Shown piece after piece: positions 13,671 to 36,336 of a DNA stretch of 64,000 bases. This stretch comes from Pontiella desulfatans (GTDB taxonomy: Bacteria > Verrucomicrobiota > Kiritimatiellia > Kiritimatiellales > Pontiellaceae). Each line of letters opens with the position of its first letter. The stretch's first letter is position 1. The notes beneath the pieces were generated by a model. The model was not told where the DNA came from. It was given only the letters and a program-made list of their open reading frames with translations, and made no database searches. The stretch lies in assembly GCF_900890425.1 (NCBI RefSeq), contig NZ_CAAHFG010000001.1:3100001-3164000 (forward strand). The letters run 5' to 3'. Both the position numbers and the translations under genes were made by a program.

Positions 13671-13796
13671 ATTAAATATTGTGAGTATAGCCACGAAAAG
13701 GCACAAGAAGCACAAAGACCTGGGCTATTGTGTTTTCGTGTTTCTTGTGCCTCTTTGTGGCCATAAATCCGTTCCATGGAATTCGCAATATTTAAC
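13671..13796. repeat. Large imperfect inverted repeat (CACGAA/CACAAGAA type)
   Basis: Inner arms 13690-13717 and 13733-13761 pair (gccacgaaaaggcacaagaa against its complement with few mismatches). Outer arms ttaaatattg (13672-13681) and caatatttaa (13786-13795) extend the structure. It resembles the cacgaa/cgtgtttcttgtg repeats near 59860-60456. The right arm ends 16 bases before the beta-helix gene start at 13812, so it may affect that transcript's leader. Confidence 0.8.
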
Positions 13797-13811
13797 TTCC
13801 GGAGCAATAGA

Positions 13812-15071
13812 ATGACTGGATTCTTTTTTGCTTTTTTGTTTTTTATCGGTCCCGCCCAGGCACCGGAGAGCCCGGTATATGATGTGACGGCATACGGGGC
13901 AGTGGCCAACGACGGACTGAGCGACACGGCAGCGGTTCAGGCGGCGTTAAGCGCAGCGACGTCCGCGGGAGGCGGAACGGTGTATCTTCCGGCAGGAACC
14001 TATGAGGTCGATAGCCTGAATATCGGCAGCAACACGGAAATGATCGGAGACCGGGCCGGCGCCACGGTCCTGAAACGGGAACCGGGAACCGACCAGCCGT
14101 TGTTGGTGGCCGGCGCGGTCAGCAACATTACCGTCCGCGCCATCGCCTTCAACGCCAATAAAGCCCAGACATCGGGTACCCCCCAGTGCCTGCGTTTTAT
14201 CGATACGGAAGATTTTCTGGTGGCCGATTGCGTGCTGCACGATTCCACCGGCCACACGCTCTATTGCAACGGAACAACCAACGGCACCATCAGGAATTGT
14301 GAGTTTTATGATGGCACCGCGGCCTCCGTCTACATGGTCGCCTGCGATAACATACAGGTTGCCGGATGTTTTTCCCGCACCAGTGGCGAACACGGCTATC
14401 AATTCAAAAACTGCGGGAATGTTAAATTTTCCGCCGCACATGCCACGGAAAACAACGGGTCCGGTTTCTTTATAGACAGTTGTGACGACGTCGTGCTGGA
14501 AGGCTGTCTGGCTCAAAGCAATACGAACAGCGGGTTCCGGGTTTATTCCACCGCCCTGCTGAACCAAAACATTACGTTTAACGGATGCGTTGCCCGGCTT
14601 AACGACACCGGGTTCTCCATCACCGACGCCCGGCATTTTGATCTGGCCGGTTGCATGGCCAATGAAAACGGAACCGGGATGGCCCTGGTGGATAACCTGC
14701 AACTATGCAGCGACTTTTCACTCACTGGGTGCCATATGGTCGGCAACCAGAAAGAAGGCATTACCCTGCTGGGCGCGACCGCCGGCAAAATCGAAGGATG
14801 CCTCATCAATAACAATTCCCAATCACAGACCAACGCCTACGACGGAATCCACATGGCCGACGGCGGGGGACAAACCTGCAGCAGCATCCGGATTGCCGGA
14901 TGCTCCCTGATCGATTCCCAGCCTGTCCCGACCCAAAGGCGGGGCATCACAACGACCGGCGGCAGCGATGAAATGACCATTCTCTACAACGACGTTGCCG
15001 GCAACAGCAGCACCCCGGCCATCCAGCTGGAAGGCACCAACAACACCGCGACCTTGAACATTACCCTCTGA
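13812..15071 (+). CDS. Secreted right-handed beta-helix protein (pectate-lyase-3 type)
   Basis: A secreted protein of about 419 residues. The start at 13812 has a CCGGAGC ribosome site and gives a signal peptide (TGFFFAFLFFIGPAQA); codons upstream lie in the inverted repeat. YDVTAYGAVANDGLSDTAAV followed by GGGTVYLPAGTYEV is the signature of Pectate_lyase_3 folds. After this come many turns with short C- and N-rich ladders (IRNCEFYDG, VEGCLAQSNTN-like). The enzymatic role could be polysaccharide lyase or glycosidase (GH28/GH55-like) or a phage tailspike-like fold; no catalytic set can be assigned. It is followed 32 bases later by a second beta-helix gene. Confidence 0.8.
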   Translation: MTGFFFAFLFFIGPAQAPESPVYDVTAYGAVANDGLSDTAAVQAALSAATSAGGGTVYLPAGTYEVDSLNIGSNTEMIGDRAGATVLKREPGTDQPLLVAGAVSNITVRAIAFNANKAQTSGTPQCLRFIDTEDFLVADCVLHDSTGHTLYCNGTTNGTIRNCEFYDGTAASVYMVACDNIQVAGCFSRTSGEHGYQFKNCGNVKFSAAHATENNGSGFFIDSCDDVVLEGCLAQSNTNSGFRVYSTALLNQNITFNGCVARLNDTGFSITDARHFDLAGCMANENGTGMALVDNLQLCSDFSLTGCHMVGNQKEGITLLGATAGKIEGCLINNNSQSQTNAYDGIHMADGGGQTCSSIRIAGCSLIDSQPVPTQRRGITTTGGSDEMTILYNDVAGNSSTPAIQLEGTNNTATLNITL

Positions 15072-20696: not shown

Positions 20697-23600
20697 CTAT
20701 TCCGCAACCTCAACAGAAACCGCGTCGAGGGTGACGACGGTTTTTTCGGTGACGGTTCCATAATTCAGTGCACCGAAAGCCAGGGTGTAGCCGGAAATAT
20801 TGGCGGAATAATCAGCGAGGGTTTGCGTCAGCACCGAATCCCCGCCCGTGCTGGTGGTGCCCTCCAGCTCGATGACGGCCTGCGTGCCATCCAGCGTAAA
20901 GGTGATGGTGCTCGGCAGGCCGTTGAGGTTAGCCACCGTTGCGCTGCTTGCACTCGCCCCCTGAAGCGCCTGATAAATGATGCGCCACGAAGCGGGGTCG
21001 CCCTGCTGCTCCAGCCGGAACCCGATGCCGTCATCCAGCGCGTTGGCCTGAGGGTTGAACTTTCCGGCGGCATCGTCGCCGATCGAAAAATAGAACACGT
21101 TCCGGCCGCCCCCGTTGACCCCGGTAATCGAAGCAATATCGAAACGGGCCGATACCGGATGATCGTAAAAATTGTAGAGTTTCGCGCCATTGAACATCGA
21201 CACATCCCCGTCCTGGTTCACGGTCGTGTTGAGCGCGGCCTGGGCTGAGCCGTTCGGAATGCCGACATCCATCACCAGCTGCCCGCCGGTCGGGGTTGTT
21301 GCTGCTCCCGCCCCCTGAAGGTATTCCGTCCAGTTGGTATTGAGTGACCCACCGAAGGAATCATTCCAAACCTCGACGCCAATTCCGCCGCTTGACTCCT
21401 TCACAACATAAAACCGGTTGGTGGCATCGTCCATTTCAACCACGATTTCCATGAGCCCGTTGGATGCCGCCAATTCAACCGAAACTTCCTGCCAGTCGGG
21501 ATCGGTCAGCGACTCGGATGTCAGGATGTCGTAGCGGTAGGTTTGGCGAACCGGGTGGCGCAACGTAATCTGGGAACCGGACACCGACGGGGCCACCACA
21601 AATGGAATCCCCTCGTTTAAAGCCGCCTTCAGAGGGATCAGCGCATCCTTGAGCGGAGCAACGATTTCGGGGTGTTGGTCAAAAAGGTTGTCCGATTCGC
21701 CGGGATCAAGGTCGAGGTCGTAGAGCTGGTCGGCATTTTCTGTTACACGTCCCGTCGGGTTGTCCGGATCGTGCTCGATATATTTCCATTTTTCCTGCCG
21801 GATCGAATAGATGGCACTCGGGCTGCGCGTCAGAACCGTATCGCGCGGCGATGCCGCACTCTCCCCTGTCCAGACCGGCAGGAAACTCAAACTGTCAACC
21901 GCGCTTTCAGGCGCAGACACATCAAGCAGATCCGCACAAGTTGCCATCACATCCGTTAAACAGAACAGACGATCATCGGTGATGTTTGCCGGAATGTGGT
22001 TGCTCCAGCTAACGATGAACGGTATGCGGCTGCCGCCTTCAAAAACGGCATGTTTTCCGCCGCGCAGTTCTCCATTGCTCAGATGCCCTGCAGAATAGGC
22101 TTCCCACATCGGCTCGTTTCCCCATTGTATCGCAGAGGCTTCACTTGTTGAAATAACCGCCCCGTTATCGCTGGTAAAAATAACCAGCGTATCATCCAGC
22201 CGACCCGTGGTGCGGAATGCATCGAGCAGTGCACCGACCTGTCCGTCGAGTTCATGCAGAAAATCGCCGTAAAGCCCGATGCCGCTGCTGCCGATAAACT
22301 CCGCGGCGGGCGTGATGGGTTTATGCGGCACCGTCGATGAAAAAAAGAGGAACAGGGGCTCGTTGGTCGGCGCCGACTCAATATATTCAACCGCCTTGGC
22401 CAGGGTGTCGCCGGCCACTTCATCCTGCGCGAAACGCACATCTTCGCTCCAAGGATCTACGCTGTTGGCGCTGTTCACCGTCACCACATCATTTGACCCG
22501 CGCCCGTAAAATTTATCGTTCTCGATATAAAAATCCGGTTCGTTCAACACGTTGGCGGCCAGCCCGAAAAAGTGGTTGAAGCCGACATCCAACGGCCCGC
22601 CCTCAATGGTCGGCTGGCTCCAGTCGTAGCGCTCGCCATACGAATCGCCGTAGCCGACGCCGAGATGCCACTTTCCGAACGCCGCCGTATTGTACCCCTT
22701 TTGCTGGAACAGCGTCGGCAACGCCACCACCCCGCGTTCCAACAATGCATTCGGCCCGGCGGGATGGATCACGCCGGTCGGCGGATGCAGCGGACTGCGC
22801 CACCAGTAGCGGCCGCTAAACAGACTGACGCGCGACTGCGAACACGTTGACGACGGCGTATAGGCCTGGGTAAAGCGCATGCCGTTTGCGGCGAGGCTGT
22901 CAATGTGCGGCGTCGCAATATTCGTCGCGCCATAACACCCCACATCGCCATAGCCCAGGTCGTCAGCGAAGATAATCAAAACATTCGTAAACGATACCCC
23001 GCCCGTATCGGGCATTCCGTCGGAAGGATCCAGCGGATCGAGCCCGTTCGCCTGTTCATAGATGTCAGAAAGCGAATCGTTGTCATAATCGCCATCGGAG
23101 GCGCGCACCCAGTCGATCTCGAAATTTCCGAGGCCGTTGCAGGGATTGATGCGCATTCGGCTGATCGTCTGTCCATCCCAGTCCGGGTTTCCTCCAAGCG
23201 GAAGGATGACGGTTTCAAACTGTCCGCTTGAATACGGGATAGCGATTTTACGTGTGTTGTCCATCACATCGTTCGAGCTGGTTGCCCAGCGTAAGGTCAG
23301 TGTGGACGAGGCATCGGACTTCACCCGTACGAGCAGGTTCGAGAGCGCACCGCTGTCAAAAGAGAAATCGTCACTTTCAATTCGCCCCGACTTGCTCTCG
23401 GATTGTCCGGAGAGAATGCCGCTGGTCACGGTCGCATTAGAGATGGATGCCATCACACTGTCCCATCCCTGATAATCGCCATCGGCATTGAATTCGAAAG
23501 CAAGGTCGGAAGCATCGTTCATATCGCGGCCGGCCGCAAATTCATCGTCATTCAGCATGCCGTCGCCATCGATATCCAGCGCTGGTTCCCCGGGCGTCTC

Positions 23601-25073
23601 AATGGCAACCGGATAGGCCGCCGGTGCCGCGTTGGTATAGGGAATCACATAGCGCGGTTCAATCGCGGTGCCCACGGGAGCGCCGTTCACATAGACCGGG
23701 CCACGCGGATTCCCCAGCGTGGACTGCCCCTCCGGCGGGAGCGAGTCGCGCCAGGCCAGCAAGTCGGCAACCAGCTCGGCGTGCTTCGCCGGATTCTGAT
23801 AGCGCAGGTTGGTCAGCTCCCACGGATCGTCCGCCAGATTAAACAGATAATCCGCCGTGGCGTCGCGCTGGAGCTTCCAATCGCCCTTTCGAATCGCGAT
23901 GGCCTGATCATGATCCCAAAAAAGCGGCGTGTCGCGGATCACGGTAGGCGCTCCATTGGTCAGTCGCGGCAGCAGGTTAACGCCATCCATTTCCGCCGTG
24001 GGCGTTCCCCCGCCAGCGATCAAGGTTGTGGCGGTAAAATCGAGCGTGGAGACCGGTTCATCGATCACCAGGCCGGGCGGGATCGTATCTTTCCAGTAGG
24101 CAAACATCGGCACACGGATGCCACCCTCCCAGAGCGTCCCCTTCTCGCCGCGCAGCGGAACGTTTTCCGATCCGTCCGCCGTCTCCAGCGATTTCACGCC
24201 GCCGATATCAGTCCCGAATTTGGGGCACGCGCCATTATCGCCGGCAAAGAAAATGAGCGTGTCTTCCTCAATGCCGTGCTCGCGCAGTTTCTGCATCACG
24301 CCGTCGACGGAGTCATCAATGGCTTTAATCAGCGCCAGCCCCTGGCGGCGGATTACATCCATTTCGTCACTGTAGTTGGGATAGTCGAGTTCCGGAAAAT
24401 TCACATAATAGGAATCGTTCGTCGAGATGCGCGGCGTATGCGGGCCATAGAATGCGAGATACAGAAAAAATTCATTGGTATGGTTTCGGTCAATGAAGGC
24501 TTCCGCGGCTTCCCCCTGCACCGTCACCCGGTTGCGCATATGGCTCACGTCCTGCCGCGGAACGGAGTTGCCGTCCAGGTCAAAGTTCACCTCATAATCG
24601 GTGTAGACGCCGGTGTAGTATTCATCGAAACCGCGCGCGCCGGTAAAATGATCGCCCTCGTCGCCGAGGTGCCACTTGCCGACCTGTCCCGTTGTGTAGC
24701 CAAGATCCCGCATGCGTTCCGGAATCAGAACGATAGGATCGCCCTCCGGGTCGGTCAACGGAAGCGGGCCGTCGGTGTTGATGATCAGGCCCACCTCGTT
24801 CTGGATGCGACCCATCATCAGCCCGGCGCGCGAAGGCACGCACTTGGGTGCACTGGCGTAGCCGGAAGTCATCAGCGCACCGCCGGAAGCCAGCGTATCG
24901 AGCGTTGGCGTATCCACATGAGGATCAATCCCGTGCAGACCCAAATCGGTGACGCCATGGTCATCCGTATAAATGATAATCACGTTCGGGTTGCGCGATG
25001 CTCCATCCGCTACAGCCTCCACTCCAAGAACTGCACAACATAAGGCAACCAGCCCTTTCAACACATTCTTCAT
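20697..25073 (-). CDS. Double-sulfatase fusion with C-terminal beta domain
   Basis: A 1458-residue secreted protein carrying two complete S1 sulfatase domains. The signal peptide is about 1-23. Domain 1 (about 29-450) has IIIYTDDHG and the formylglycine site CVPSR at Cys78. A linker (about 498-690) contains DIDGDGMLNDDEF and DYDNDSLSDIYEQ calcium-type motifs around a beta-sandwich. Domain 2 (about 696-1160) has IIFADDLGYGD and the site CSQSR at Cys744. Gln replaces the usual Pro/Ala at the third position, so maturation of this site is uncertain. A short module (YRYDILTSESL to NRFYVV) precedes a terminal domain of about 220 residues (VWNDSFGGSLNTNW to TLDAVSVEV) shared with the 28818-32681 protein. 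It begins 12 bases after the upstream gene's stop. Confidence 0.9.
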   Translation of the reverse strand: MKNVLKGLVALCCAVLGVEAVADGASRNPNVIIIYTDDHGVTDLGLHGIDPHVDTPTLDTLASGGALMTSGYASAPKCVPSRAGLMMGRIQNEVGLIINTDGPLPLTDPEGDPIVLIPERMRDLGYTTGQVGKWHLGDEGDHFTGARGFDEYYTGVYTDYEVNFDLDGNSVPRQDVSHMRNRVTVQGEAAEAFIDRNHTNEFFLYLAFYGPHTPRISTNDSYYVNFPELDYPNYSDEMDVIRRQGLALIKAIDDSVDGVMQKLREHGIEEDTLIFFAGDNGACPKFGTDIGGVKSLETADGSENVPLRGEKGTLWEGGIRVPMFAYWKDTIPPGLVIDEPVSTLDFTATTLIAGGGTPTAEMDGVNLLPRLTNGAPTVIRDTPLFWDHDQAIAIRKGDWKLQRDATADYLFNLADDPWELTNLRYQNPAKHAELVADLLAWRDSLPPEGQSTLGNPRGPVYVNGAPVGTAIEPRYVIPYTNAAPAAYPVAIETPGEPALDIDGDGMLNDDEFAAGRDMNDASDLAFEFNADGDYQGWDSVMASISNATVTSGILSGQSESKSGRIESDDFSFDSGALSNLLVRVKSDASSTLTLRWATSSNDVMDNTRKIAIPYSSGQFETVILPLGGNPDWDGQTISRMRINPCNGLGNFEIDWVRASDGDYDNDSLSDIYEQANGLDPLDPSDGMPDTGGVSFTNVLIIFADDLGYGDVGCYGATNIATPHIDSLAANGMRFTQAYTPSSTCSQSRVSLFSGRYWWRSPLHPPTGVIHPAGPNALLERGVVALPTLFQQKGYNTAAFGKWHLGVGYGDSYGERYDWSQPTIEGGPLDVGFNHFFGLAANVLNEPDFYIENDKFYGRGSNDVVTVNSANSVDPWSEDVRFAQDEVAGDTLAKAVEYIESAPTNEPLFLFFSSTVPHKPITPAAEFIGSSGIGLYGDFLHELDGQVGALLDAFRTTGRLDDTLVIFTSDNGAVISTSEASAIQWGNEPMWEAYSAGHLSNGELRGGKHAVFEGGSRIPFIVSWSNHIPANITDDRLFCLTDVMATCADLLDVSAPESAVDSLSFLPVWTGESAASPRDTVLTRSPSAIYSIRQEKWKYIEHDPDNPTGRVTENADQLYDLDLDPGESDNLFDQHPEIVAPLKDALIPLKAALNEGIPFVVAPSVSGSQITLRHPVRQTYRYDILTSESLTDPDWQEVSVELAASNGLMEIVVEMDDATNRFYVVKESSGGIGVEVWNDSFGGSLNTNWTEYLQGAGAATTPTGGQLVMDVGIPNGSAQAALNTTVNQDGDVSMFNGAKLYNFYDHPVSARFDIASITGVNGGGRNVFYFSIGDDAAGKFNPQANALDDGIGFRLEQQGDPASWRIIYQALQGASASSATVANLNGLPSTITFTLDGTQAVIELEGTTSTGGDSVLTQTLADYSANISGYTLAFGALNYGTVTEKTVVTLDAVSVEVAE

Positions 25074-25085
25074 GCTCTAACCTTT

Positions 25086-28000
25086 TTATTTTTCGATGAT
25101 ACGGAAGAACCGTACCGGATCGTCGGCCGATACGCCTATGATGGTGTTGGTCAGCTCAGCCGCCGACATATTCGTATGGCTTCCATGCGGGGTCCAATTG
25201 GTAAATGACAGATTATCGCAGGACTCGAGGTCATAGGTTTTTCCATCGTTGCTGTTCCATACAAAGTTCAGCATGCCCGCACTGAACTCAACCTGAACCG
25301 CCACCGGATCGGGCACGAGCAGCGCTTCGAGAGCAGTCACATCACCGGCATCAAAATAGCCATCGCCGTTGACATCGAAGTCGGTCAGGTTGAGGGCAGT
25401 CAGCGCCTCGACCGGCGTACTGCCCTGAGCGATCAGAACCGCCTGCCGGTTGGTGGCTGTTTCACCGCCGTCTCCTGCAAGATAGGTATTAGCCAATGCC
25501 AGGTCGGCCGCATCGATGACGCCGTCTTTGTTGACGTCTCCGGCTTCCGGAACCGTGATGACCAGCGCCACTTCATAGACTTTCAGCTGCGACACCTGAG
25601 TCACATTCGTCGGATTCGGTGTTCCGCCGGGATAATCGACGATGGCTTCGGTGTTGACATGATCGATGATCACATGGATCGGCGCCTGAGCGGCCAGCAG
25701 GTCGGCCCCGCTGATGGTGGCGGTCTGGTAGGTTCCCGCAGCGTCCGGCAGCGTATCCGCCGCAATGGACATCAACGAACCGGCAACCGCCTGGGCGGTA
25801 TTGCTTGCATCAGCACCGGCAGTGAGCGCAGCCGTAAAGGTGGCCGAAGACTGATCGGTATTGGAATTGGGCTGCGCCACATCAACACGCAGTTCGTAGG
25901 TCGCACCAGGGCTGACCTGGCCGAGAATGTTTTCCTGCTTCATGCCATTGCGATAATTCATGGAAGAATTCAGGGTCAATTCACCGTCCGAGGCAATATG
26001 CGTATCGAGATAGAACGTTCCGCCCAGCAGGCCGCCGTCATCCGTATATGGAGCTCCGATATGCCCGGTAAGCCCGTCCGGGTCGGCATGGTAAGGCGAC
26101 CAGCCAACCACGTCCGCCGTTTTTCCCCAGAGCCCCGAATAGTCGCCGAAGGAACCTGCCACATTGTATTTGTCTTCACCGGGCGGGGTCATATTCGAAA
26201 GCTGGCCGAAGCTGCCGTTGGGAATCAGGTTCGGGCCGACAATGACATCAAACGGCAGTGCAGAAATCGGAAGTGCCTCGATCACGATGGAATCGGTGAT
26301 AAAGGAAGGAGCATCTACAACCCCCACTCCCACGTTGCATGCTCCGATCGCCAACGCGAACGCACTGTAATCCGTTTCCACAATATTAGTAAAACTTCCG
26401 CTGATCTCCCTGTCGCCGCCGGCGAAAGTGGTGCCGGAAACCGTTACACTGTAGCTCACATTCCCACCGGTACCGTCCAGCATAATATCCAGTCCGGTCG
26501 GAGCAACGAGGTCGGTCTCATTCGTTCCGGAAGGCAGCGTAAAGTTGTGCTTCAGCAACCGAACCGGGCCTGCCGCCGACGTCGTGTGCATAATCTCCAG
26601 GTAGTAGTAATCGTTCGTTCCCCCCGCCCAATACTTCCGGTTGATGGAAAACACGAGTCCGTTGTTCCCCTTGCCGTAATAATATTTATTCCGGTTGTTA
26701 GTATCAAACAGCCCCAGATAGGTCGAAGTCGCTTTAGAACCGGGGTCACCCGCCAGCTCTGAAAGGTCCCACTGAATATCGAGCGGCTTTTCAAAATAGT
26801 TCAGCTCATCGGCTCCCATGCCGCTGTTCTGCCCATAACCGGGTTCCTTGTACATATACGAGCGCTGGGCGTTCGTAATATTGCCTACATCGAAAAAGAC
26901 CCCGTCATAAGTATCGGCCCCGATGCTGTTGGTTGCAACCGGTTGCTGCCCGGCGGTAGACGCATACACGTTCCATCCCGCGAGCGCCCCGTTCCAGTTC
27001 TCAGCGTGGACAACCACCTCCGCCGTGTCTGCCGGAAGCGGGTCGGTCACAACAGCATCCAGCACATAGGACGCCCCTTCGTTGACCGCGCCGCTGTTGT
27101 ACGCGCCGACCGCCAGCACAAAGTTGCTGTAATCCGCCTCCACAATATTTGTGATACTTCCGCTGACCTGCGTTAAGCCGCCCACAAACGTCGTCCCGGA
27201 AACAGAAATGCTGTAGCTCACATCGGTACCGGTTCCATCCAGCGTGATATTCAGCCCGGTCGGCGCGACGGGCGCGCTGCCTCCCGATGGTAACGCCAGA
27301 TTCTGCTTCAGGATCTGCTGCGGCGCGGTAGCGCCATCATCCGAAAGGCGATGGATCTCCAGGAAATAATAATCATTCGTCAGCGATGACGCAAACTTGC
27401 GGGTAATCGAGAAAGATAGACCGTTGTTATCCTTGCCCGGATAGTAGCGGGCGCGGTTGTTGTTATCCGAAAGCATCAGGTACGCCATCGTAGAGCCACC
27501 ATCGGCCGTGTTGCCGGTCAGGTCGTGCAGATCCCACTGGATGCTTAAGCCGTTATCAAAATAGTTCAGCTCATTAACATCCATTGCGCCGTTTTTTCCA
27601 TAACCCGGCTCTTTAAAGATGAACGAGCGGTGCGATCCGGTTCCGGTGCCCACATCAATCAGCACGCTGTCATAGATATTGGAGGATGCAACAAGATTGG
27701 TTCCCACCGGATCCAGTGTGGTTGAATTGAAATCCCACTCAGCAAACTCGGTGCCCGACCACGTCCAGGTCGACACACTTTCCCGAATAAACGCGTTTGC
27801 CAGATACATGAAGGTATAGGGCTGATCCTCGGGCAGGATTGCAACGGGATGGTCGTACCAGGACTGAACTGTTCCCAACGCCGGCGTCAGCCCGTTCGCT
27901 TTGACCTCCCGCAGGCAGTTCATCACGTTTTCATGGAAGAGTTGATCGGAGGTGTTTCCGCCGGTGTGATCATTAAACAGGAAGTAGAACTCCAGCCCCT

Positions 28001-28769
28001 GCTGTTCGCAGAACGCTTCCATGGCCTGGAGCTTTGCCCACCCGTTCTCTGTGTTCACAATCCGTTCATAGGAATATTCGGGTTGGAAGATATCGATCTT
28101 TGTCCCCAGCGCATCACAGGCCGCGATGACGTCGACGAGAATCGTTTTCAAGTCGCCATAGTCCTTCGACGGATCTTCTGCGGGGAAGATCGCCTGATCC
28201 TCCCAATGGAAGCGAAACGCGGCTTCAAGGATCCCCACTTTCAGATCCGGATAATTTTCTTTAATCCCGGCCACATACGTGGCGTAGTTGGTTACGGCGT
28301 CCTCATAGGTCCAGTTATAAATATTGGTCGTGCTCGCTTTAAACTGCGATTTAACGAAGACATTGTCCGTGATGATAAAGTCAACCGTCCCGCCAGCCGC
28401 AGTGATCGGATCAAGTATGCCCTCTTCGGTACTTTCGTGTCCTTTCCGAATCCCCACCTCGACCGCAAAGTCCTTGCCCATCGCGGCCAGATTCGCCACC
28501 GACTGGCTCAGCAGCGCGGGTTCACGCTTGTTCAGCCAAACGACGGGCGTGGAATAGAACTTGAAATGGGAGATATTCTCCAGCACAGCACTCCACTCAT
28601 CCAACTGATGGATAAACAGCTCTTCCACCTGCCGGACAAAATTCGTTTCTCCCAGGGCGTTAGGTGTCAGGCGAGGACAGACGGTAATCTGCATAGGCTC
28701 CGCTGCGAACAATGCATTGCCCGCAAGAGCCAACCCGATAACCATCCACTTGAATATACTTTTCATCAT
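25086..28769 (-). CDS. Putative novel secreted hydrolase with dockerin-like module
   Basis: A 1227-residue secreted multidomain protein. After the signal peptide (about 1-22), residues 23-350 look like a TIM-barrel (ITVCPRLTPNALGETNFV, FAVEVGIRKGHE, VGILEAAFRFHWE, KIDIFQPEYSYERI, FYFLFNDHTGG). No known glycosidase family was recognised. Two repeated sandwich domains follow (WNGALAGWNVYAS, FFDVG, YKEPGYGQN). Then comes a third sandwich (PNGSFGQLSNMTPPGEDKYN), a dockerin-type calcium pair (GDVNKDGVIDAADLAL and FDVNGDGYFDAGDV) and a tail module ending VRFFRIIEK. A truncated second copy of the N-terminal domain is at 32795-33214. It probably lies in one operon with the sulfatase fusions on both sides. 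Confidence 0.75.
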   Translation of the reverse strand: MMKSIFKWMVIGLALAGNALFAAEPMQITVCPRLTPNALGETNFVRQVEELFIHQLDEWSAVLENISHFKFYSTPVVWLNKREPALLSQSVANLAAMGKDFAVEVGIRKGHESTEEGILDPITAAGGTVDFIITDNVFVKSQFKASTTNIYNWTYEDAVTNYATYVAGIKENYPDLKVGILEAAFRFHWEDQAIFPAEDPSKDYGDLKTILVDVIAACDALGTKIDIFQPEYSYERIVNTENGWAKLQAMEAFCEQQGLEFYFLFNDHTGGNTSDQLFHENVMNCLREVKANGLTPALGTVQSWYDHPVAILPEDQPYTFMYLANAFIRESVSTWTWSGTEFAEWDFNSTTLDPVGTNLVASSNIYDSVLIDVGTGTGSHRSFIFKEPGYGKNGAMDVNELNYFDNGLSIQWDLHDLTGNTADGGSTMAYLMLSDNNNRARYYPGKDNNGLSFSITRKFASSLTNDYYFLEIHRLSDDGATAPQQILKQNLALPSGGSAPVAPTGLNITLDGTGTDVSYSISVSGTTFVGGLTQVSGSITNIVEADYSNFVLAVGAYNSGAVNEGASYVLDAVVTDPLPADTAEVVVHAENWNGALAGWNVYASTAGQQPVATNSIGADTYDGVFFDVGNITNAQRSYMYKEPGYGQNSGMGADELNYFEKPLDIQWDLSELAGDPGSKATSTYLGLFDTNNRNKYYYGKGNNGLVFSINRKYWAGGTNDYYYLEIMHTTSAAGPVRLLKHNFTLPSGTNETDLVAPTGLDIMLDGTGGNVSYSVTVSGTTFAGGDREISGSFTNIVETDYSAFALAIGACNVGVGVVDAPSFITDSIVIEALPISALPFDVIVGPNLIPNGSFGQLSNMTPPGEDKYNVAGSFGDYSGLWGKTADVVGWSPYHADPDGLTGHIGAPYTDDGGLLGGTFYLDTHIASDGELTLNSSMNYRNGMKQENILGQVSPGATYELRVDVAQPNSNTDQSSATFTAALTAGADASNTAQAVAGSLMSIAADTLPDAAGTYQTATISGADLLAAQAPIHVIIDHVNTEAIVDYPGGTPNPTNVTQVSQLKVYEVALVITVPEAGDVNKDGVIDAADLALANTYLAGDGGETATNRQAVLIAQGSTPVEALTALNLTDFDVNGDGYFDAGDVTALEALLVPDPVAVQVEFSAGMLNFVWNSNDGKTYDLESCDNLSFTNWTPHGSHTNMSAAELTNTIIGVSADDPVRFFRIIEK

Positions 28770-28817: not shown

Positions 28818-31800
28818 CTACTCCGTGACCTCGATGGAAACCGCATCGAGTGTGGCGACGGTTTTGGTATCTACGTTTCCAAGATTAAACACACCGAAGG
28901 CCAGCGTATAGCCCGTAATATTGGCAGAATAATCCTCCAGCGTTACGGTTACTTCCGAGCTGCCGTTCGATGTGTCTGTTGAGTCCTCCAACAGAATAGT
29001 GGCCTGCGCTCCATCCATCACATATGTGATTGCACTGGGAATGCCACTGAGGTTGGCGACGGTTCCCCCGCTGGCACTTGCTCCCTCCAGCGCCTGATAG
29101 ACAATGCGCCATGCACCGGGACTTCCCGCCTGTTCCAATCGGAACCCGATGCCATCATCGAGTGCGTTACCCTGCGGCTGATATTTTCCGACGGCATCAT
29201 CGCCGATCGAGAAAAAGAACTCGCTCTTCCCGGTGCCGTTGGTGCCGCTGATCGAGGCAATATCGAAACGCGCAATAACCGGGTGGTCGTAGAAGTTGTA
29301 GAGCTTCTCTCCGACGAATGTTGTCATGGTTCCCGTCTGATCGGTGGTCGTGTTAAGAGCGGCCTGAGCGCTCTTATTGGTGATGCTGGCATCCAATACG
29401 AGTTGCCCGCCGGTCTGGATCACACTGGCACCGCTCCCCTGTGTATATGCCGTCCAGTTGGTATTGAGGGATGCCTCGCCGAAGCTTTCGCTCCAAATCA
29501 CATTGGTCTGCCCGCCGAGGGTTTCCCAGATCGAATAAAACCGGTTCATATCGCCGCCGACCGGCAGCGTGATATTTTTAAAACCGTTACTCGAAGAAAC
29601 GTCGGCGGACACTTCCTGCCAATGGGGATCGGTCAATGATTCGGTTGCCATGACGGCATAACGATAACCATCCCGAACCGGGTGACGGTAATCCATCGTC
29701 CCACCCGCAGCGTCCATGCGGAACGGAACGGGCATGCCTCCATTGGTATAGACCTGCCAAGCGGGAACGCCGTTGATATCCTTCCAGTCGGCGGCATGCC
29801 AGTTAAAGCCGTCCATCAGTTCATAGTCGGAAAGCCACATCAGGGGCGTGCCCTGCTGGGTGCTCCACAGATATTCCTTCGCCGCCTTTTGCTCGTCCCA
29901 ATAGGAGAACCAGCGCGCTTCATCGTAGTTCGTTGTGTTAGGTACCGGAACATGCGCGTTCTGTGCGGTCAGCTCAGCCAGCAGCAGGGCTTCAAGTTCG
30001 GAGACTTTTTCGGGATATTGATCGGCCAGGTTGGTGGTTTCGCCGATGTCGGCATCGAGGTCGTAGAGTTCGTTAGCCCAGGGCTGCACCGGATTATCCG
30101 TTCCATCCCAGAAGTGGCGAAGCTTCCATTTTCCTTTCCGGATAACGGCGCCGCTGCGGTTCCACTCCGGCTGACCGATCAGGGTGTAGTGCGGGAAGAA
30201 CCAAGTAACAAAATCGCGCCCCGTCGGGGTTTGATCGGTGATGTAGGGCTTGAGGTTAATGCCGTCGAGCGGGTTGCCCGGCAGTTGTTCCAGACCGGCG
30301 GCATCCAGCAGCGTCGGATAAATATCGTGGGTCACAATGACTTCATCGGACTCGCGCGGAGCAACCCCCGGCCAGCGGACGATGGTCGGAATGCGCAGCC
30401 CGCCCTCGTAGGTGGAGGTCTTTGCACCGCGCAGCGGACGCATGGAGGTGACGATCTTATTTCCGTCCGTTTTGTCGGGCGCATCCATCCGGATGCCGCC
30501 GTTGTCGGAGGTGAAGATGATGATGGTGTTTTCGTAGACGCCCTGCGCCTTGAGCTCGGCGACGATGGTTCCCACCGCATCGTCGAGGCTCTTGACCATG
30601 CCGGCATAGATCGCAAAGTTCTGGGCATTGGTCTCATCGCGTGTGCCGGTGAAGTAGTCGATGTAGGCCTGCTTCGCCTCATAGGGGCCATGCACCGCGA
30701 AGGTGGGCACATAGCAGAAGAACGGAGTGGAGGCGGCGACATTATTGCTGATAAACGTACAGGCCTCGGCGGCCAGGCGGTCGGTGAGCTGCTCGCCGGT
30801 CGGCCCGTCGGTCAGATGCGGATTCTGGTAGGGTGAAAAATAGCTTTTCGGGAAACCCAGATGATGGTCGGCCTTGGCAACATCGAAACCCTGCTGGCTG
30901 GCCATCTTGTCGGCGTCCGGCCCGAGGTGCCACTTGCCGAAAAACCCGGTGGCGTAGCCTGCCTCTTTGAGGCGCTCGGCAATGGTGATGCTTGAGAGCG
31001 GCAACTGCTCCTGTTGCTGCGGAATGGTGACCGGATAAGGTTTGGAATTTTTCATCACCGCCGGATCGGTCCAGTTCGTATAATTAAACTCGGGGTCCGA
31101 ACGTGTGGCCGGCGGTACGCCGGTGATGTGCTGGCGCGCGGGCGCCCAGCCGGTGAGCATGGCCGCACGACTGGCGGAGCAGAGCGGCGCGGAAGCATAG
31201 GCATCGGTAAAGGCGATGCCCTCGGAGCAGAGCTGATCAATATGCGGTGTTTCGTAGAAGGTGCTGCCGAAACAACCGAGATCACGCCAACCCATATCGT
31301 CGGCCATGATCACCACGATATTCGGAGAACTGATAATCGTATTATTTGAACCTACCAGGCTGTAGGGCGCGATCAGGTTTCCGTCCAGGTCGTTATTCTG
31401 AAGCGTGATCCCATCGGTCAAACCGATCGATTCAACGCCATAGTCCTGCTCTGCACCGCCAATGATGTTGTTGCGAATTATAATATTGGTGGACGGCATA
31501 TCCGGCACGAGATAGGTACCGTTGGCTATCAGAATACCGGACGCATCGTCTGCCGGATCCAGACCGTTATCAGTAATGGTATTGGAGCGGATTTCAGAAT
31601 CCTGAATCCCCCGCAGAAATATCCCGTCCAGTCCATTGGAAACAATCGTGGAATTTTCGATCAGATGGCCGGTACTCAGCCGGTCGTAACGGAAACTGCT
31701 CAGAGCAACGATGCCGTACTCCCCGTTTTCATAACTCTGAATATCGGTCAGGGTCACATCGTAGGCGTTGGCGATTTCAAAACCGTTCTGCCCATTCCCG

Positions 31801-32681
31801 CGTGAAACGCAGTTGGAAAAGGTAATGTCGCAAGGCTGACGCAGATTGTTATTATTAATGAACACGGCAAAGCCGCGCTTTTCATTGCCTTCCGCCAGAC
31901 AATCGAAATAGTTGAGATCAGTGCAGGAATCCGATGTAAAACCCGAACCATGCCCGTTTGAAGCGCTGTTGGCTTCGCAGGCCATGAAAAGCACGTTACT
32001 GGCCAGATAGACATCGAACCCCCAGCGATCAGCACTGGATACACAGTTGCTGTAGACGATGCCGTTTAAGCTGTCGATCAACCCATCGCGCGACTGCGCA
32101 TAAAAGCCAAGTTCATTGCCGGTTGAGGTGCAGTTCAGGATTTCGGTCTGGCAATCCTCCACCTGTGTCCCCTGCACCACGCAGCCGATGTTCTTTGAAT
32201 TTTCGAACGCACAATCCTCCACCAGCAGCCCGACCACATTTTGCATGTTTACCGAGTGGAGATAGTCATTGGTCTGGCTCGATCTCCGCCCGTCAAAACA
32301 TACCTGCCGGATGGTGATATTCTCGTTGCCGGACTGCTTGCTTTTGTTCTTGAGAATATTGGATCCATTCGGTCGATAATCATTCGCCTGTAGACGGGTA
32401 ACCGAACTGCCATCGCCACGAAAGATGGTATCATTCCCGATTTTCAGTGTATCCACCCAGTAATCACCGGGCGGAAGATACACCTCATCCACGCCGGCCA
32501 GGGCATCCGCCGCATCGAGCGCCGCCTGGATGCCGACCGTATCATTCGTGCCATCATCCGGTGTAGCCCCGTACATGGTTATGTCAAAAACATCAGCCAA
32601 ACTGGTTCCCGAAAGGAGCACCGCTATCGTGGAGATGACTGCAAGGCGGCTTTTCAATTTAATTTCACTCAGCATTTCCAT
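28818..32681 (-). CDS. Beta-helix / S1 sulfatase fusion
   Basis: A 1287-residue secreted fusion. The start is taken at the ATG at 32681, after AGGAGAGAGG (the frame opens at 32711). The signal peptide is about 1-29. Residues 32-450 are a Pectate_lyase_3-type beta-helix (FDITMYGATPDDGTNDTVGI, VYLPPGDYWVDTLKIG, then cysteine-ladder turns). Residues 453-930 are a full S1 sulfatase: IVVIMADDMGW, formylglycine site CSASR at Cys501, GKWHLG and FTSDNGGI. Next comes the YRYAVMATESL...NRFYSIWE module, then a terminal domain of about 220 residues shared with the double sulfatase. Joining a carbohydrate-binding or cleaving helix to a sulfatase in one chain suggests coupled desulfation and chain recognition. 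It is the promoter-proximal gene of the minus-strand row. Confidence 0.9.
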   Translation of the reverse strand: MEMLSEIKLKSRLAVISTIAVLLSGTSLADVFDITMYGATPDDGTNDTVGIQAALDAADALAGVDEVYLPPGDYWVDTLKIGNDTIFRGDGSSVTRLQANDYRPNGSNILKNKSKQSGNENITIRQVCFDGRRSSQTNDYLHSVNMQNVVGLLVEDCAFENSKNIGCVVQGTQVEDCQTEILNCTSTGNELGFYAQSRDGLIDSLNGIVYSNCVSSADRWGFDVYLASNVLFMACEANSASNGHGSGFTSDSCTDLNYFDCLAEGNEKRGFAVFINNNNLRQPCDITFSNCVSRGNGQNGFEIANAYDVTLTDIQSYENGEYGIVALSSFRYDRLSTGHLIENSTIVSNGLDGIFLRGIQDSEIRSNTITDNGLDPADDASGILIANGTYLVPDMPSTNIIIRNNIIGGAEQDYGVESIGLTDGITLQNNDLDGNLIAPYSLVGSNNTIISSPNIVVIMADDMGWRDLGCFGSTFYETPHIDQLCSEGIAFTDAYASAPLCSASRAAMLTGWAPARQHITGVPPATRSDPEFNYTNWTDPAVMKNSKPYPVTIPQQQEQLPLSSITIAERLKEAGYATGFFGKWHLGPDADKMASQQGFDVAKADHHLGFPKSYFSPYQNPHLTDGPTGEQLTDRLAAEACTFISNNVAASTPFFCYVPTFAVHGPYEAKQAYIDYFTGTRDETNAQNFAIYAGMVKSLDDAVGTIVAELKAQGVYENTIIIFTSDNGGIRMDAPDKTDGNKIVTSMRPLRGAKTSTYEGGLRIPTIVRWPGVAPRESDEVIVTHDIYPTLLDAAGLEQLPGNPLDGINLKPYITDQTPTGRDFVTWFFPHYTLIGQPEWNRSGAVIRKGKWKLRHFWDGTDNPVQPWANELYDLDADIGETTNLADQYPEKVSELEALLLAELTAQNAHVPVPNTTNYDEARWFSYWDEQKAAKEYLWSTQQGTPLMWLSDYELMDGFNWHAADWKDINGVPAWQVYTNGGMPVPFRMDAAGGTMDYRHPVRDGYRYAVMATESLTDPHWQEVSADVSSSNGFKNITLPVGGDMNRFYSIWETLGGQTNVIWSESFGEASLNTNWTAYTQGSGASVIQTGGQLVLDASITNKSAQAALNTTTDQTGTMTTFVGEKLYNFYDHPVIARFDIASISGTNGTGKSEFFFSIGDDAVGKYQPQGNALDDGIGFRLEQAGSPGAWRIVYQALEGASASGGTVANLSGIPSAITYVMDGAQATILLEDSTDTSNGSSEVTVTLEDYSANITGYTLAFGVFNLGNVDTKTVATLDAVSIEVTE

Positions 32682-32736
32682 TCCTCTCTCCTGCGCCGAT
32701 ATGACGCACATGCCTCAACCGAAAGCCCATGCCCTG

Positions 32737-32794: not shown

Positions 32795-33214
32795 CTATCG
32801 CCAGCTGGAACTATCTTTCATGATGACAAAATCGACCGTCCCGCCAGCCGCAGTGATCGGATCAAATATGTTATCCTCGGTATTTTCGTGTCCTTTACGA
32901 ATCCCCACCTCAACCGCAAACGCCTTACCCATCGCGGCAAGAGCGGGTTCATTGTTCTTCAGCCAGGTAACCGGCGTGGAGTAGAACTTGAAATGCGAAA
33001 TTTGAGACAAGACATCATCCCATTCATTCGTCTGATTGATAAACAGGTCTTCCACCTGCTCGACAAAATTCGTTTCACCCAAGGCGGCTGGTGTCAGGCG
33101 CGGACAGACCGTCACCTGCATGTGTCCTTCGCCAAATGCAACAGAAGCAATGCCCAAAAGGCAGGCCAGAAGAACAGAGAACCGGGAAAACGTATGTTGA
33201 AGTGGATGATTCAT
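32795..33214 (-). pseudogene. Truncated paralogue of the novel hydrolase N-terminus
   Basis: 139 codons encode a signal peptide and the first 110 or so residues of the 25086-28769 domain (ITVCPRLTPNALGETNFV there, VTVCPRLTPAALGETNFV here). The alignment has a short internal deletion after the NEPAL region. Similarity stops at GGTVDFVI, after which seven unrelated residues precede the stop. The ribosome site is weak. It is a broken gene sitting just upstream of the beta-helix/sulfatase fusion, and the break may mark the point where the fusion gene was joined in. Confidence 0.8.
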
Positions 33215-33216
33215 TT

Positions 33217-33507
33217 TTAAGTTAAGCAGTTTCCATGGCAGTTAAGTAACGTAGGACAGTGCTTCCAGCCTGTCTGCATTTGCATCGCCGAGCCGCGGTG
33301 GACAGGCTGGAAGCGCTGTCCTACTTTAAGGACTGGGTTTGGGCCTGAGTTCGTCGCCTGATAGATATTCAGCCATTCCTCCGACCCTGATCCGTAGGAA
33401 ACATGGGCATGATCCGGCACGGCGGTCTGGCCATAGCTGACCGCCATAAATACCACACTGATCAACACAACCAGGCTCAACCGCGCGGTCAAAATCGCAC
33501 GTTTCAT
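33217..33507 (-). pseudogene. Broken secreted esterase-like gene interrupted by REP element
   Basis: Starts at 33507 after an excellent AGGAGG ribosome site and encodes a signal peptide (LSLVVLISVVFMAVSYG). It then reads HVSYGSGSEEWLNIYQATNSGPNPV, which resembles the opening of secreted alpha/beta-hydrolases/carbohydrate esterases. At that point the sequence enters the palindromic repeat at 33251-33324 and the remaining residues are repeat translation. No GXSXG nucleophile region survives. It is a gene truncated at a REP-like element. Confidence 0.65.
33251..33324. repeat. Palindromic REP-like repeat (GTAGGACAG type)
   Basis: Arms GTAGGACAGTGCTTCCAGCC... (33251-33274) and its complement (33301-33324) pair over 24 bases with one mismatch. 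The 26-base loop is GC-rich. It is located exactly where the esterase-like gene loses similarity. Confidence 0.9.
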
Positions 33508-33582: not shown

Positions 33583-36336
33583 CTATTTTTCAATGATCCG
33601 GAAGAAACGAGCCAGACCGTCGGTCGCCACTCCGTTGAGGCTGTTCGTCGGCAAAGTCGCCGCAATGTTCGTGAAACTTCCATGAGCATCCCAATCATTG
33701 AGCGTCAAGGAACTGCACGAATGCAGGTCATAGGTTTTTCCGTCGTTGCTGTTCCACGCGAAATCCAGCGTGCCCGCAATGAGATCAACTTGAACCATCA
33801 CCGGATCAGGCACCAACAACGCTTCGAGAGCGGTCACATCGTCGGCATCAAAATAGCCGTCGCCATCCACATCGAAGTCCGTCAGGTTGAGTGTAGCCAG
33901 CGCTTCGGCGGGTGTACTGCCTTGTCCGATCAGGATATCCTGACGGTTGGTGGCCGAATCGCCGCCGTCGCCCGCCAGATAGGTTTCCGCCAGCGCGAGG
34001 TCGGCGGCATCGATGACGCCGTCTTTGTTGACATCCCCGGCTTCGGGAACCGTGATCACCAGAGCGACCTCATAGACCTTCAACTGCGAAACCTGATTCG
34101 CATCCGTCGGATCGGGCGTTCCGCCCGGATAATCGACAATGGCCTCGGTGTTGACATGATCGAAGATCACGTTCACCTGCCCGAGCGCCTGCGCCGCCAG
34201 CAGGTCGGCACCGCTTATCGAGGCCGTCTGGAACGTTCCTTCAGCGGTCGGCAGCGTGCTTGCCGCAATCGACATCAACGATCCGGAAACCGCATTGGCC
34301 GTGTTGGTCGCGTCTGCACCAGCCGTGAGAGCAGCAGTAAACGTGGCCGAAGACTGGTCAGTACCGCCATCCTTCTGCACCACATCAATACGCAGCTCGT
34401 AGGTCGCATTCGAATTCACCTGACTGAGGAAATTCTCCTGTTTCATGCCATTGAGGTAATTCATGGATGAGTTCAGGGTCAATTCACCGTCCGTGGTAAT
34501 GTGCGTATCGAGATAGAAGGTTCCGCCCAGCAGTCCGCCATCGTCCGTGTGCGGAGCTCCAATGTTCGTCGTGAGTCCGTCCGGGTCGTCGTAATAGGGA
34601 GACCAGCCATCCACGGTTGCTGTTTTCCCCCAGAGTCCTGAATAATCGCCGAAGGATCCCTGCACATTGTATTTGTTTTCACCGGGCGGGGTCATCCCCG
34701 AAAGCTGAGTCAGATCGCCGTTGGGCATAAAGTTCGGGCCGGAAATGACATCGAACGGAGCCACTTCTTCCAGCTGCTTTTGGACTACAATGGAATCCAG
34801 GATATAGGATAGCCCGTCATTGACGGCACCCGTGTTGTAAGCCCCGATCGCCAGCACAAAATTGCTGTAGTCGGATTCCAAAATATTCGTGGTGCTTCCG
34901 CTGATTGTTGATGCGCCGCCGAAGGTTGTCCCGGAAACAGTCACGCTATAGCTCACATTCGTTCCGCTTGTTCCATCCAGCTCAATATCCAGCCCGGTCG
35001 GAGCAATGAGATCGACTTCATTGGTGCCGTTCGGAAGGGTGAAATTATGCTTGGAGATCAACTGGGGCTGAGTTGACCCGTCCCCATAGATGCGATGAAT
35101 CTGCAGATAATAATAATCATTCGTCCGCGAAGCTAAATGCTTACGGCTGACCGAAAATGAAAAGCCATCGTTATTGTTGCCCGGGAAATATTTAGTGCGA
35201 CTCGCATCATCAAACAGCGCCAGATACGCCGACGTCACCTTTGCACCCGGATCCCCCGCTAGGTCAGAGAATTCCCACTGGATGCTCAAAGGCCCCTGAA
35301 AATAGTTCAGTTCATTCGTTCCCATGCCGGTATTCTGTCCATAGCCGGGTTCCTTATAAATGTAGGAACGCTGGGATGTCACGGCTGAACCCACATCAAT
35401 AAACACGCCGTCATAGGTATCCGCCGCAACGAGGTTCGTTGCCACCGGATCCAGCGTTGTGCCTGCCGAATTCCACCCCGCGAGCGCCCCCGTCCAGGTA
35501 TCGTCGTTGACCACCGCATCCTCCACCGGGGCCGGAACGCTTTCAACAATAATCGAATCCGTAACAAAGGAGGGGCCGCCGTCTACCGCACCCACATTGC
35601 AGGCCCCGATTGCCAGCGCAAACACGTTGTAATTCGTTTCCGCAATGGCCGCAAGGTTGCCGGTGATGGTCGTGTCGCCGCCGGCAAAGGTGGTTCCGGA
35701 AACGGTAATGCTGTAGCTGATATCCGCACCAGTTCCGTCCAACTCAATTTCCAGCCCGGTCGGAGCAACGAGATCAACCTCGTTGGTTCCGGAAGGAAGC
35801 GTAAAATTCTGTTTTAACAACTCGACGGGACCTGCTTCCGCAGTCGTATGCATAATTTGGAGATAATAATAGTCATTCGTCCCCGCTGCCCAATATTTAC
35901 GGGTAATAGAAAACAGCAACCCGTCATTCCCCTTTCCGTAATAGTATTTGTTGCGGTTGTCGTTATCAAAGATCCCCAAATAGGCCGAAGTGTTTTTCGA
36001 TCCGGGATCTCCACTCAGGTCTGAAAACTCCCATTGAATGTTCAATGGCGTATCAAAATAGTTCAGGTCATTCGGCCCCATCGCCGTATTCCGCCCGTAG
36101 CCGGGTTCCTTATAGATATTCGAGCGATGCGCTGACGTTGGCGCCCCCACATCAAAAAACACCCCGTCATAGGTACCTCCACCCAGATCATTCGTCGGAG
36201 CCGGAGTGATATTAACCGCATAGGCATTCCACCCCGCGAGCGCACCCGTCCATGTTGTATTACTCACCACGACTTCCGCCTGCGCGCCAACCGCGAACAA
36301 CACAGCCATCATCATCCATTTCAATGCTTTCCTCAT
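33583..36336 (-). CDS. Large secreted sandwich-domain protein with dockerin-like module
   Basis: A 917-residue secreted protein with signal peptide (about 1-20) and a GGAGAGG ribosome site. It is a domain-for-domain paralogue of the C-terminal two-thirds of the 25086-28769 protein. It has two sandwich repeats of about 240 residues (WTGALAGWNAYAV, FFDVG, YKEPGYGRN; second copy WTGALAGWNSAGT). These are followed by a PNGDLTQLSGMTPPGENKYN domain, a dockerin-like calcium pair (GDVNKDGVIDAADLAL, FDVDGDGYFDADDV) and the tail ending ARFFRIIEK. It lacks the TIM-barrel-like N-terminus. No catalytic motif is seen, so it is more likely a binding or scaffold protein. It is transcribed alone, with a terminator behind it. 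Confidence 0.75.
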   Translation of the reverse strand: MRKALKWMMMAVLFAVGAQAEVVVSNTTWTGALAGWNAYAVNITPAPTNDLGGGTYDGVFFDVGAPTSAHRSNIYKEPGYGRNTAMGPNDLNYFDTPLNIQWEFSDLSGDPGSKNTSAYLGIFDNDNRNKYYYGKGNDGLLFSITRKYWAAGTNDYYYLQIMHTTAEAGPVELLKQNFTLPSGTNEVDLVAPTGLEIELDGTGADISYSITVSGTTFAGGDTTITGNLAAIAETNYNVFALAIGACNVGAVDGGPSFVTDSIIVESVPAPVEDAVVNDDTWTGALAGWNSAGTTLDPVATNLVAADTYDGVFIDVGSAVTSQRSYIYKEPGYGQNTGMGTNELNYFQGPLSIQWEFSDLAGDPGAKVTSAYLALFDDASRTKYFPGNNNDGFSFSVSRKHLASRTNDYYYLQIHRIYGDGSTQPQLISKHNFTLPNGTNEVDLIAPTGLDIELDGTSGTNVSYSVTVSGTTFGGASTISGSTTNILESDYSNFVLAIGAYNTGAVNDGLSYILDSIVVQKQLEEVAPFDVISGPNFMPNGDLTQLSGMTPPGENKYNVQGSFGDYSGLWGKTATVDGWSPYYDDPDGLTTNIGAPHTDDGGLLGGTFYLDTHITTDGELTLNSSMNYLNGMKQENFLSQVNSNATYELRIDVVQKDGGTDQSSATFTAALTAGADATNTANAVSGSLMSIAASTLPTAEGTFQTASISGADLLAAQALGQVNVIFDHVNTEAIVDYPGGTPDPTDANQVSQLKVYEVALVITVPEAGDVNKDGVIDAADLALAETYLAGDGGDSATNRQDILIGQGSTPAEALATLNLTDFDVDGDGYFDADDVTALEALLVPDPVMVQVDLIAGTLDFAWNSNDGKTYDLHSCSSLTLNDWDAHGSFTNIAATLPTNSLNGVATDGLARFFRIIEK

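Follow-up and report, generated by a model that had tools for sequence, protein, structure and literature searches.

Proteins that join a sulfatase to a carbohydrate-active domain have been published for Formosa agariphila, for Pontiella and for Planctomycetes. Protein P36 of F. agariphila is a GH78-S1_25 fusion acting on ulvan, and its two domains were shown to perform consecutive steps (PMC8511951). For Pontiella strains F1 and F21, the accessible part of the published account describes the sulfatase fusions GH10-S1_7, GH32-S1_7 and GH29-S1_15 (PMC6388578), and the corresponding part of a report on Porphyra-associated Planctomycetes describes sulfatases whose fusion partners are GH, alginate lyase, laminin G or HEAT domains or a second sulfatase (PMC4807772). 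The Pontiella desulfatans protein analysed here carries a carbohydrate-active fold, an AlgE-like beta-helix, and a sulfatase in a single frame, both of them maintained; as fusions are already published from these three sources, it is a new domain combination within the known CAZyme-sulfatase type. Like P36, it is a two-domain sulfatase-CAZyme protein, but the partner in P36 is an active rhamnosidase, whereas here it is a beta-helix without the catalytic pair of its nearest family. The F1 and F21 fusions come from the same organisms and likewise place a sulfatase and a carbohydrate-active domain in one protein; their partners are recognisable glycoside hydrolases, and no beta-helix or epimerase-like partner was found in the accessible part of that account. 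Several of the planctomycete fusion types also occur in the P. desulfatans genome, which encodes sulfatase-GH43, LamG-sulfatase and double sulfatase proteins, but the accessible portion of the planctomycete report makes no mention of a fusion with an AlgE-like helix. Nor was an AlgE-like helix-sulfatase protein found in a literature search that covered mainly papers available without subscription.

P. desulfatans is a marine bacterium that encodes hundreds of sulfatases. The window, the whole stretch of DNA that was analysed, comprises 64,000 nucleotides (C1:3100001-3164000) of its 8.66 Mb genome, which is assembled in 6 contigs. The initial annotation placed the fusion at 28818-32681, which likely corresponds to its CDS, and named no strand; the frame lies on the minus strand and is made up as follows.

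28818..32681, minus strand: fusion CDS, 1287 aa, with ATG at 32681 and stop at 28818-28820; frame open
32595..32681, minus strand: signal-peptide-like segment, residues 1-29 (MEMLSEIKLKSRLAVISTIAVLLSGTSLA, followed by D), read from the translation
31332..32594, minus strand: AlgE-like right-handed beta-helix, residues 30-450 (Pfam PF12708/PF13229, AlphaFold2, match to AlgE4 2pyg_A)
29907..31331, minus strand: sulfatase of S1 type, residues 451-925, nearest solved relative S1_16 (PF00884, SGSH_C, 9fo1)
31179..31181, minus strand: codon of Cys501, formylglycine precursor in C-S-A-S-R (alignment to 9fo1 Cys58)
29505..29906, minus strand: linking region, residues 926-1059, without a family match (sequence)
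28821..29504, minus strand: C-terminal concanavalin A-like (jelly-roll) module, residues 1060-1287 (homologous neighbour modules, model, fold match)

Translation of the minus strand from 32681 to 28818 gave zero internal stops. The ATG at 32681 is the likely start of the CDS, because a Shine-Dalgarno-like AGGAGAGAGGA lies directly upstream of it; an alternative in-frame ATG at 32711 would add 10 residues (1297 aa), and the residue numbers used here are those of the 1287-aa form, equal to the 1297-aa numbering minus 10. The N-terminus is hydrophobic, ends in SLA before the D and resembles a signal peptide. Four Pfam matches, all exceeding the gathering score, were obtained in this numbering: Pect-lyase_RHGA_epim (33-243), Beta_helix (274-447), Sulfatase (453-796) and SGSH_C (756-905). 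The beta-helix runs straight into the first sulfatase strand without a linker (..NNTIISSPNIVVIMADDMGW..), and the YRHPV..YRYAV..ESLTDPxWQEVS stretch of the linking region is seen again in a neighbouring double sulfatase. The earlier observation that one frame encodes a beta-helix and a complete sulfatase with Cys501 was borne out by the Pfam domains, the 1287-aa open frame and the CSASR motif. A lectin-like C-terminal module and a paralogue of the fusion had been overlooked.

The sulfatase domain (PF00884, E 8.5e-61) has as its closest solved relative the S1_16 kappa-carrageenan 4-O-sulfatase AMOR_S1_16A (9fo1; 1.3e-91), with which it shares 43% identity over 434 aa and the catalytic and Ca-binding residues. 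Cys501, a formylglycine-type cysteine within C-S-A-S-R (501-505), aligns with Cys58 of 9fo1, and the core residues D461, D462, C501, R505, K583, H585, H664, D726, N727 and K754 all match that structure and are also kept across nine relatives in the alignment. The domain thus combines the C/S-x-P/A-x-R motif of S1 (formylglycine-dependent) sulfatases with their metal and sulfate ligands, and removal of sulfate by this half is a well supported prediction, because all core catalytic residues are present. Solved S1_16 structures conserve Trp79, His125, His149 and His201 (PMC11760155). The fusion departs from this residue set: H585 and H664 are kept, but V522 and F610 take the places of W79 and H149, and the S0-site residues E270, N369 and Q370 of 9fo1 are also replaced. 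In 9fo1 the pocket is shut at the non-reducing end by W79; without this tryptophan, an additional subsite could be open in the fusion sulfatase.

The AlphaFold2 model of the helix is a complete right-handed beta-helix (pLDDT 85.2, pTM 0.87), the A-module fold of AlgE-type mannuronan C5-epimerases. Its best structural neighbour was AlgE4 (2pyg_A; Z 43.8, rmsd 1.5 A, 334 aligned residues), followed by the AlgE6 A-module (Z 43.4), rmsd values for the two being 1.5-1.6 A over 334-340 residues. Ranked below these were phi29 gp12 (Z 38.9), an alginate epimerase/lyase (Z 37.9), tailspikes (Z 35-37), the RbmB lyase (Z 35.7) and polygalacturonases (Z 31-34). The AlgE likeness of the model could be partly inherited, because AlgE-like rows were included in the alignment behind it, but sequence-only searches agree: AlgE4 was recovered from PDB chains at 5e-32 by hmmsearch with the four-member helix family and at 1.6e-9 by phmmer with the fusion helix alone, and hhalign against AlgE-like proteins gave a probability of 99.9 (E 2e-34). 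The description of the helix as pectate-lyase-3-type was justified in so far as PF12708 does match (43.8 bits; cut-off 27), but its specific relatives are AlgE epimerases, and PF12708 is not diagnostic of activity, because it is a cap common to many beta-helix enzymes. Identification as a pectate lyase proper was rejected, as the helix has only this generic cap and Beta_helix matches.

The AlgE active site consists of Y149 (acid), D152, H154 (base) and D178, and variants of AlgE7 at Y149 and H154, including H154Y, retain about 0.5% of wild-type activity or less (PMC8824271). By every method, D178 corresponds to D251 of the fusion. The registers at the active site are otherwise uncertain, with those of hhalign and HMMER lying about 29 residues apart. 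In the HMMER register Y149 is replaced by W220 and H154 by Y225, D152 and D178 are kept, and the paralogue has the same residues; in the hhalign register Y149 falls on L191 and H154 on Q196. Where AlgE proteins have the YG(F)DPHE motif with Tyr149 and His154, the fusion accordingly reads WGFDVY or LGFYAQ, and the catalytic Tyr/His pair is missing from the helix in both registers found. The fusion helix differs from the A-modules of AlgE4, AlgE6 and AlgE7 furthermore in having additional coils between the cap and the coil equivalent to that of D178, and in the attached sulfatase. The NxDG(I)D and GDD aspartate motifs of GH28 were absent as well, with no PF00295 match in Pfam, and a GH28 identity was rejected on the missing motifs. 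For AlgE epimerases, the fold was accepted and the chemistry rejected. The helix is apparently an epimerase-like coil without the known catalytic pair. Of the initial proposal that it would bind or cleave a sulfated chain, binding is plausible from the modelled fold, but cleavage is unsupported by AlgE chemistry, because Tyr149 and His154 are replaced in either register.

The C-terminal module was modelled as an all-beta structure at low confidence (pLDDT 61), with a legume-lectin-like jelly roll as its fold match (Z 13-14); homologous modules are present in the nearby double sulfatase and dockerin proteins. The following neighbours are relevant to the fusion.

13776..15071, plus strand: stand-alone beta-helix protein, 33% identity to the fusion helix
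15104..17065, plus strand: second stand-alone beta-helix protein, 27% identity to the fusion helix
20697..25073, minus strand: tandem double sulfatase that shares the C-terminal module of the fusion, with 60% identity across residues 979-1287
25086..28769, minus strand: dockerin protein, two homologous jelly-roll modules
33583..36336, minus strand: dockerin protein, two homologous jelly-roll modules

Besides the two jelly-roll dockerin proteins, several sulfatases (the double one included) lie in this cluster, as do members of GH42 and GH43 and two GH106 proteins resembling rhamnosidases; it also encodes an MFS_2 sugar transporter and a regulator of the GntR type. From this content, the best guess for the substrate is a sulfated, rhamnose-bearing glycan; 56 rhamnosidase genes have been reported for Pontiella strain F1.

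A paralogue of the fusion (1521 aa) is located on contig 5 (G000:C5) and is 82-83% identical over about 1256 aa. It has an additional copy of the C-terminal module between the signal peptide and the helix, and its helix-sulfatase join, SSPNIVVIMADDMGW, is gap-free and identical. A frameshift between residues 440 and 460, which the initial annotation had named as the event that would split the frame, is excluded because this 83% identical paralogue reads across the same join. Identity between the two proteins is 45% in the helix cap, 84% in the last helix coils and 94% in the sulfatase. The dN/dS ratio is lowest in the sulfatase (0.06), intermediate in the tail (0.14) and highest in the helix (0.20), values that are rough because synonymous sites are near or past saturation in parts; as judged from these comparisons, both halves are under purifying selection. 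Amino-acid sites of the helix change about 6 times faster than those of the sulfatase (dN 0.217 vs 0.036). W220, D223, Y225 and D251 are present in fusion and paralogue alike; the two stand-alone helix relatives have retained neither W220 nor Y225.

With middling confidence, the protein is taken to be a secreted multi-module carbohydrate sulfatase that arose by gene fusion, in which the helix mainly grips the chain and the tail tethers the enzyme. Cys501 would be converted to formylglycine, and a sulfate ester would be hydrolysed on a sugar at or near the chain end. The helix, with its AlgE fold and D251 but without the Tyr/His pair, would act as a rigid grip presenting the chain to the sulfatase, while the lectin-like C-terminal module may anchor the enzyme to the glycan, all within a cluster that would act on a sulfated, probably rhamnose-bearing glycan. 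The helix is strongly acidic (pI 4.1; 22 K+R vs 56 D+E), which is unlike the groove expected of a polyanion binder and speaks against the gripping role. Secreted marine proteins are often acidic.

A tentative alternative, possible but given less weight, is that the protein is bifunctional, the helix acting as a lyase or hydrolase through an active site that resembles neither that of AlgE nor that of GH28, so that cutting and desulfation of the chain would be combined in one protein. P36 provides a precedent in its consecutive steps of ulvan breakdown (PMC8511951), and RbmB, the polygalacturonases and the phage tailspikes are examples of lyases and hydrolases sharing the fold. The conservation of W220, D223, Y225 and D251 in both paralogues, the purifying selection on the helix and the presence of stand-alone helix relatives within the same cluster are also consistent with an active helix, but the AlgE Tyr/His pair and the GH28 motifs are missing, the stand-alone relatives are without W220 and Y225, and the roughly sixfold excess of amino-acid change over the sulfatase argues in the other direction. 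It seems unlikely, though still worth stating, that the helix founds a new lyase/hydrolase family in which the W220/D223/Y225/D251 cluster would cut a sulfated, rhamnose-bearing polysaccharide and the stand-alone helices would do related work. Far less probable is a mannuronan-type C5-epimerase or lyase working by the AlgE mechanism, with uronate epimerisation coupled to desulfation; AlgE4 and AlgE6 are the closest in solved fold and in sequence, D178 is kept and D152 too in one register, but acid Y149 and base H154 are missing in both registers, the H154Y exchange nearly abolishes AlgE7 activity (PMC8824271), and alginate is not degraded by these Pontiella strains according to their published description (PMC7356697). 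That a sequencing or assembly artefact welded two adjacent genes has a negligible probability and was rejected: beyond the general possibility, only the mosaic-like difference in GC3 between the halves (0.61 vs 0.74) favours it, against an independent, 83% identical paralogue with the identical join on another contig and selection acting on both halves.

The search for the same architecture that had been suggested at the outset was carried out, and the join of this helix to a sulfatase was seen in the P. desulfatans genome only. Among 388 genomes of the phylum searched with a helix profile, the full-length helix family had four members, all in this genome, namely the two fusions and the two stand-alone genes at 13776-15071 and 15104-17065. 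A fusion spanning both halves was not found in 58 relatives, nor in 346 genomes of the class (E<=1e-90), and comparison of the helix protein with 97 relatives gave only short cap matches outside the P. desulfatans genome. When contigs were scanned with the helix alignment, the matches were AlgE-like and PF12708 proteins, and none of the retrieved loci showed a sulfatase-bearing frame; viral contigs gave distant sulfatases and helices only, which served in trial alignments, and plasmids gave no near DNA match. Within the genome itself, 25 places match PF12708, and a sulfatase in frame was seen at just two of these, the two fusions, when loci were checked with a 1500-base flank. A comparable arrangement was found in a congener (genome G008, L129:1793-4690), where a 966-aa open frame encodes a GH28 beta-helix and a sulfatase. 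As in the P. desulfatans fusion, the beta-helix is N-terminal to the sulfatase in a single frame, but the GH28 aspartate motifs are kept and the sulfatase is from another lineage; this join evidently arose independently of the AlgE-like one. In a further congener (G001), a GH28 protein and a sulfatase of these same types, with identities of 67% and 83% respectively, are encoded by adjacent, slightly overlapping frames, which shows how such a fusion can arise.

The fusion shows sulfatase-rich marine anaerobes building mosaic enzymes, an epimerase-family fold having been welded to a sulfatase in two selected copies. A helix that only grips would make a beta-helix the carbohydrate-binding module of a sulfatase, and one that cuts would represent a new CAZyme family.

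Two features lie upstream of the beta-helix-sulfatase fusion:
32795-33214 (-), dockerin-protein fragment of 139 aa, a truncated copy immediately 5' of the fusion gene
33251-33324, inverted repeat, arms GTAGGACAG(N2)CTTCCAGCCTGTC

The fragment was 62% identical to the N-terminus of the neighbouring dockerin protein (25086-28769, -), and this truncated copy points to local duplication and decay. Neither arm of the inverted repeat had a second site in the genome, and the element resembles a terminator, or a palindrome that occurs once, and not a member of a repeat family.

Elsewhere in the window, two mutually related products gave no Pfam matches, and the second carried a PEP-CTERM-like sequence at its C-terminal end (PEPATLGLILLSGAVLLIGRRIRK):
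6130-8139 (-), large repetitive secreted protein
8196-10472 (-), large repetitive secreted protein

Sulfatase domains were also joined to other partners, or to each other:
L129:1793-4690 (-), GH28 beta-helix-sulfatase fusion, in a congener
L055:1572-4571 (-), three-part sulfatase-GH43-3-keto-disaccharide-hydrolase-like (DUF1080) fusion, same genome as the beta-helix-sulfatase fusion
20697-25073 (-), in the window, double sulfatase of 1458 aa, two complete sulfatase domains and a jelly-roll tail

In another congener (L293), GH28 and sulfatase genes related to the L129 fusion were adjacent yet separate, the GH28 itself being joined, judging from its sequence, to an alpha/beta-hydrolase-like N-terminal domain. 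The two domains of the double sulfatase belong to different lineages, and its tail is the same jelly-roll as in the beta-helix-sulfatase fusion. Further double sulfatases of this kind were observed at L051 and L058 (same genome) and L069 (a relative).

Tandem copies of the jelly-roll module were contained in a protein adjoining the paralogous fusion:
L009:5493-8111, source-genome contig 5, tandem jelly-roll protein of 872 aa

In these clusters the module appears to act as a mobile building block.
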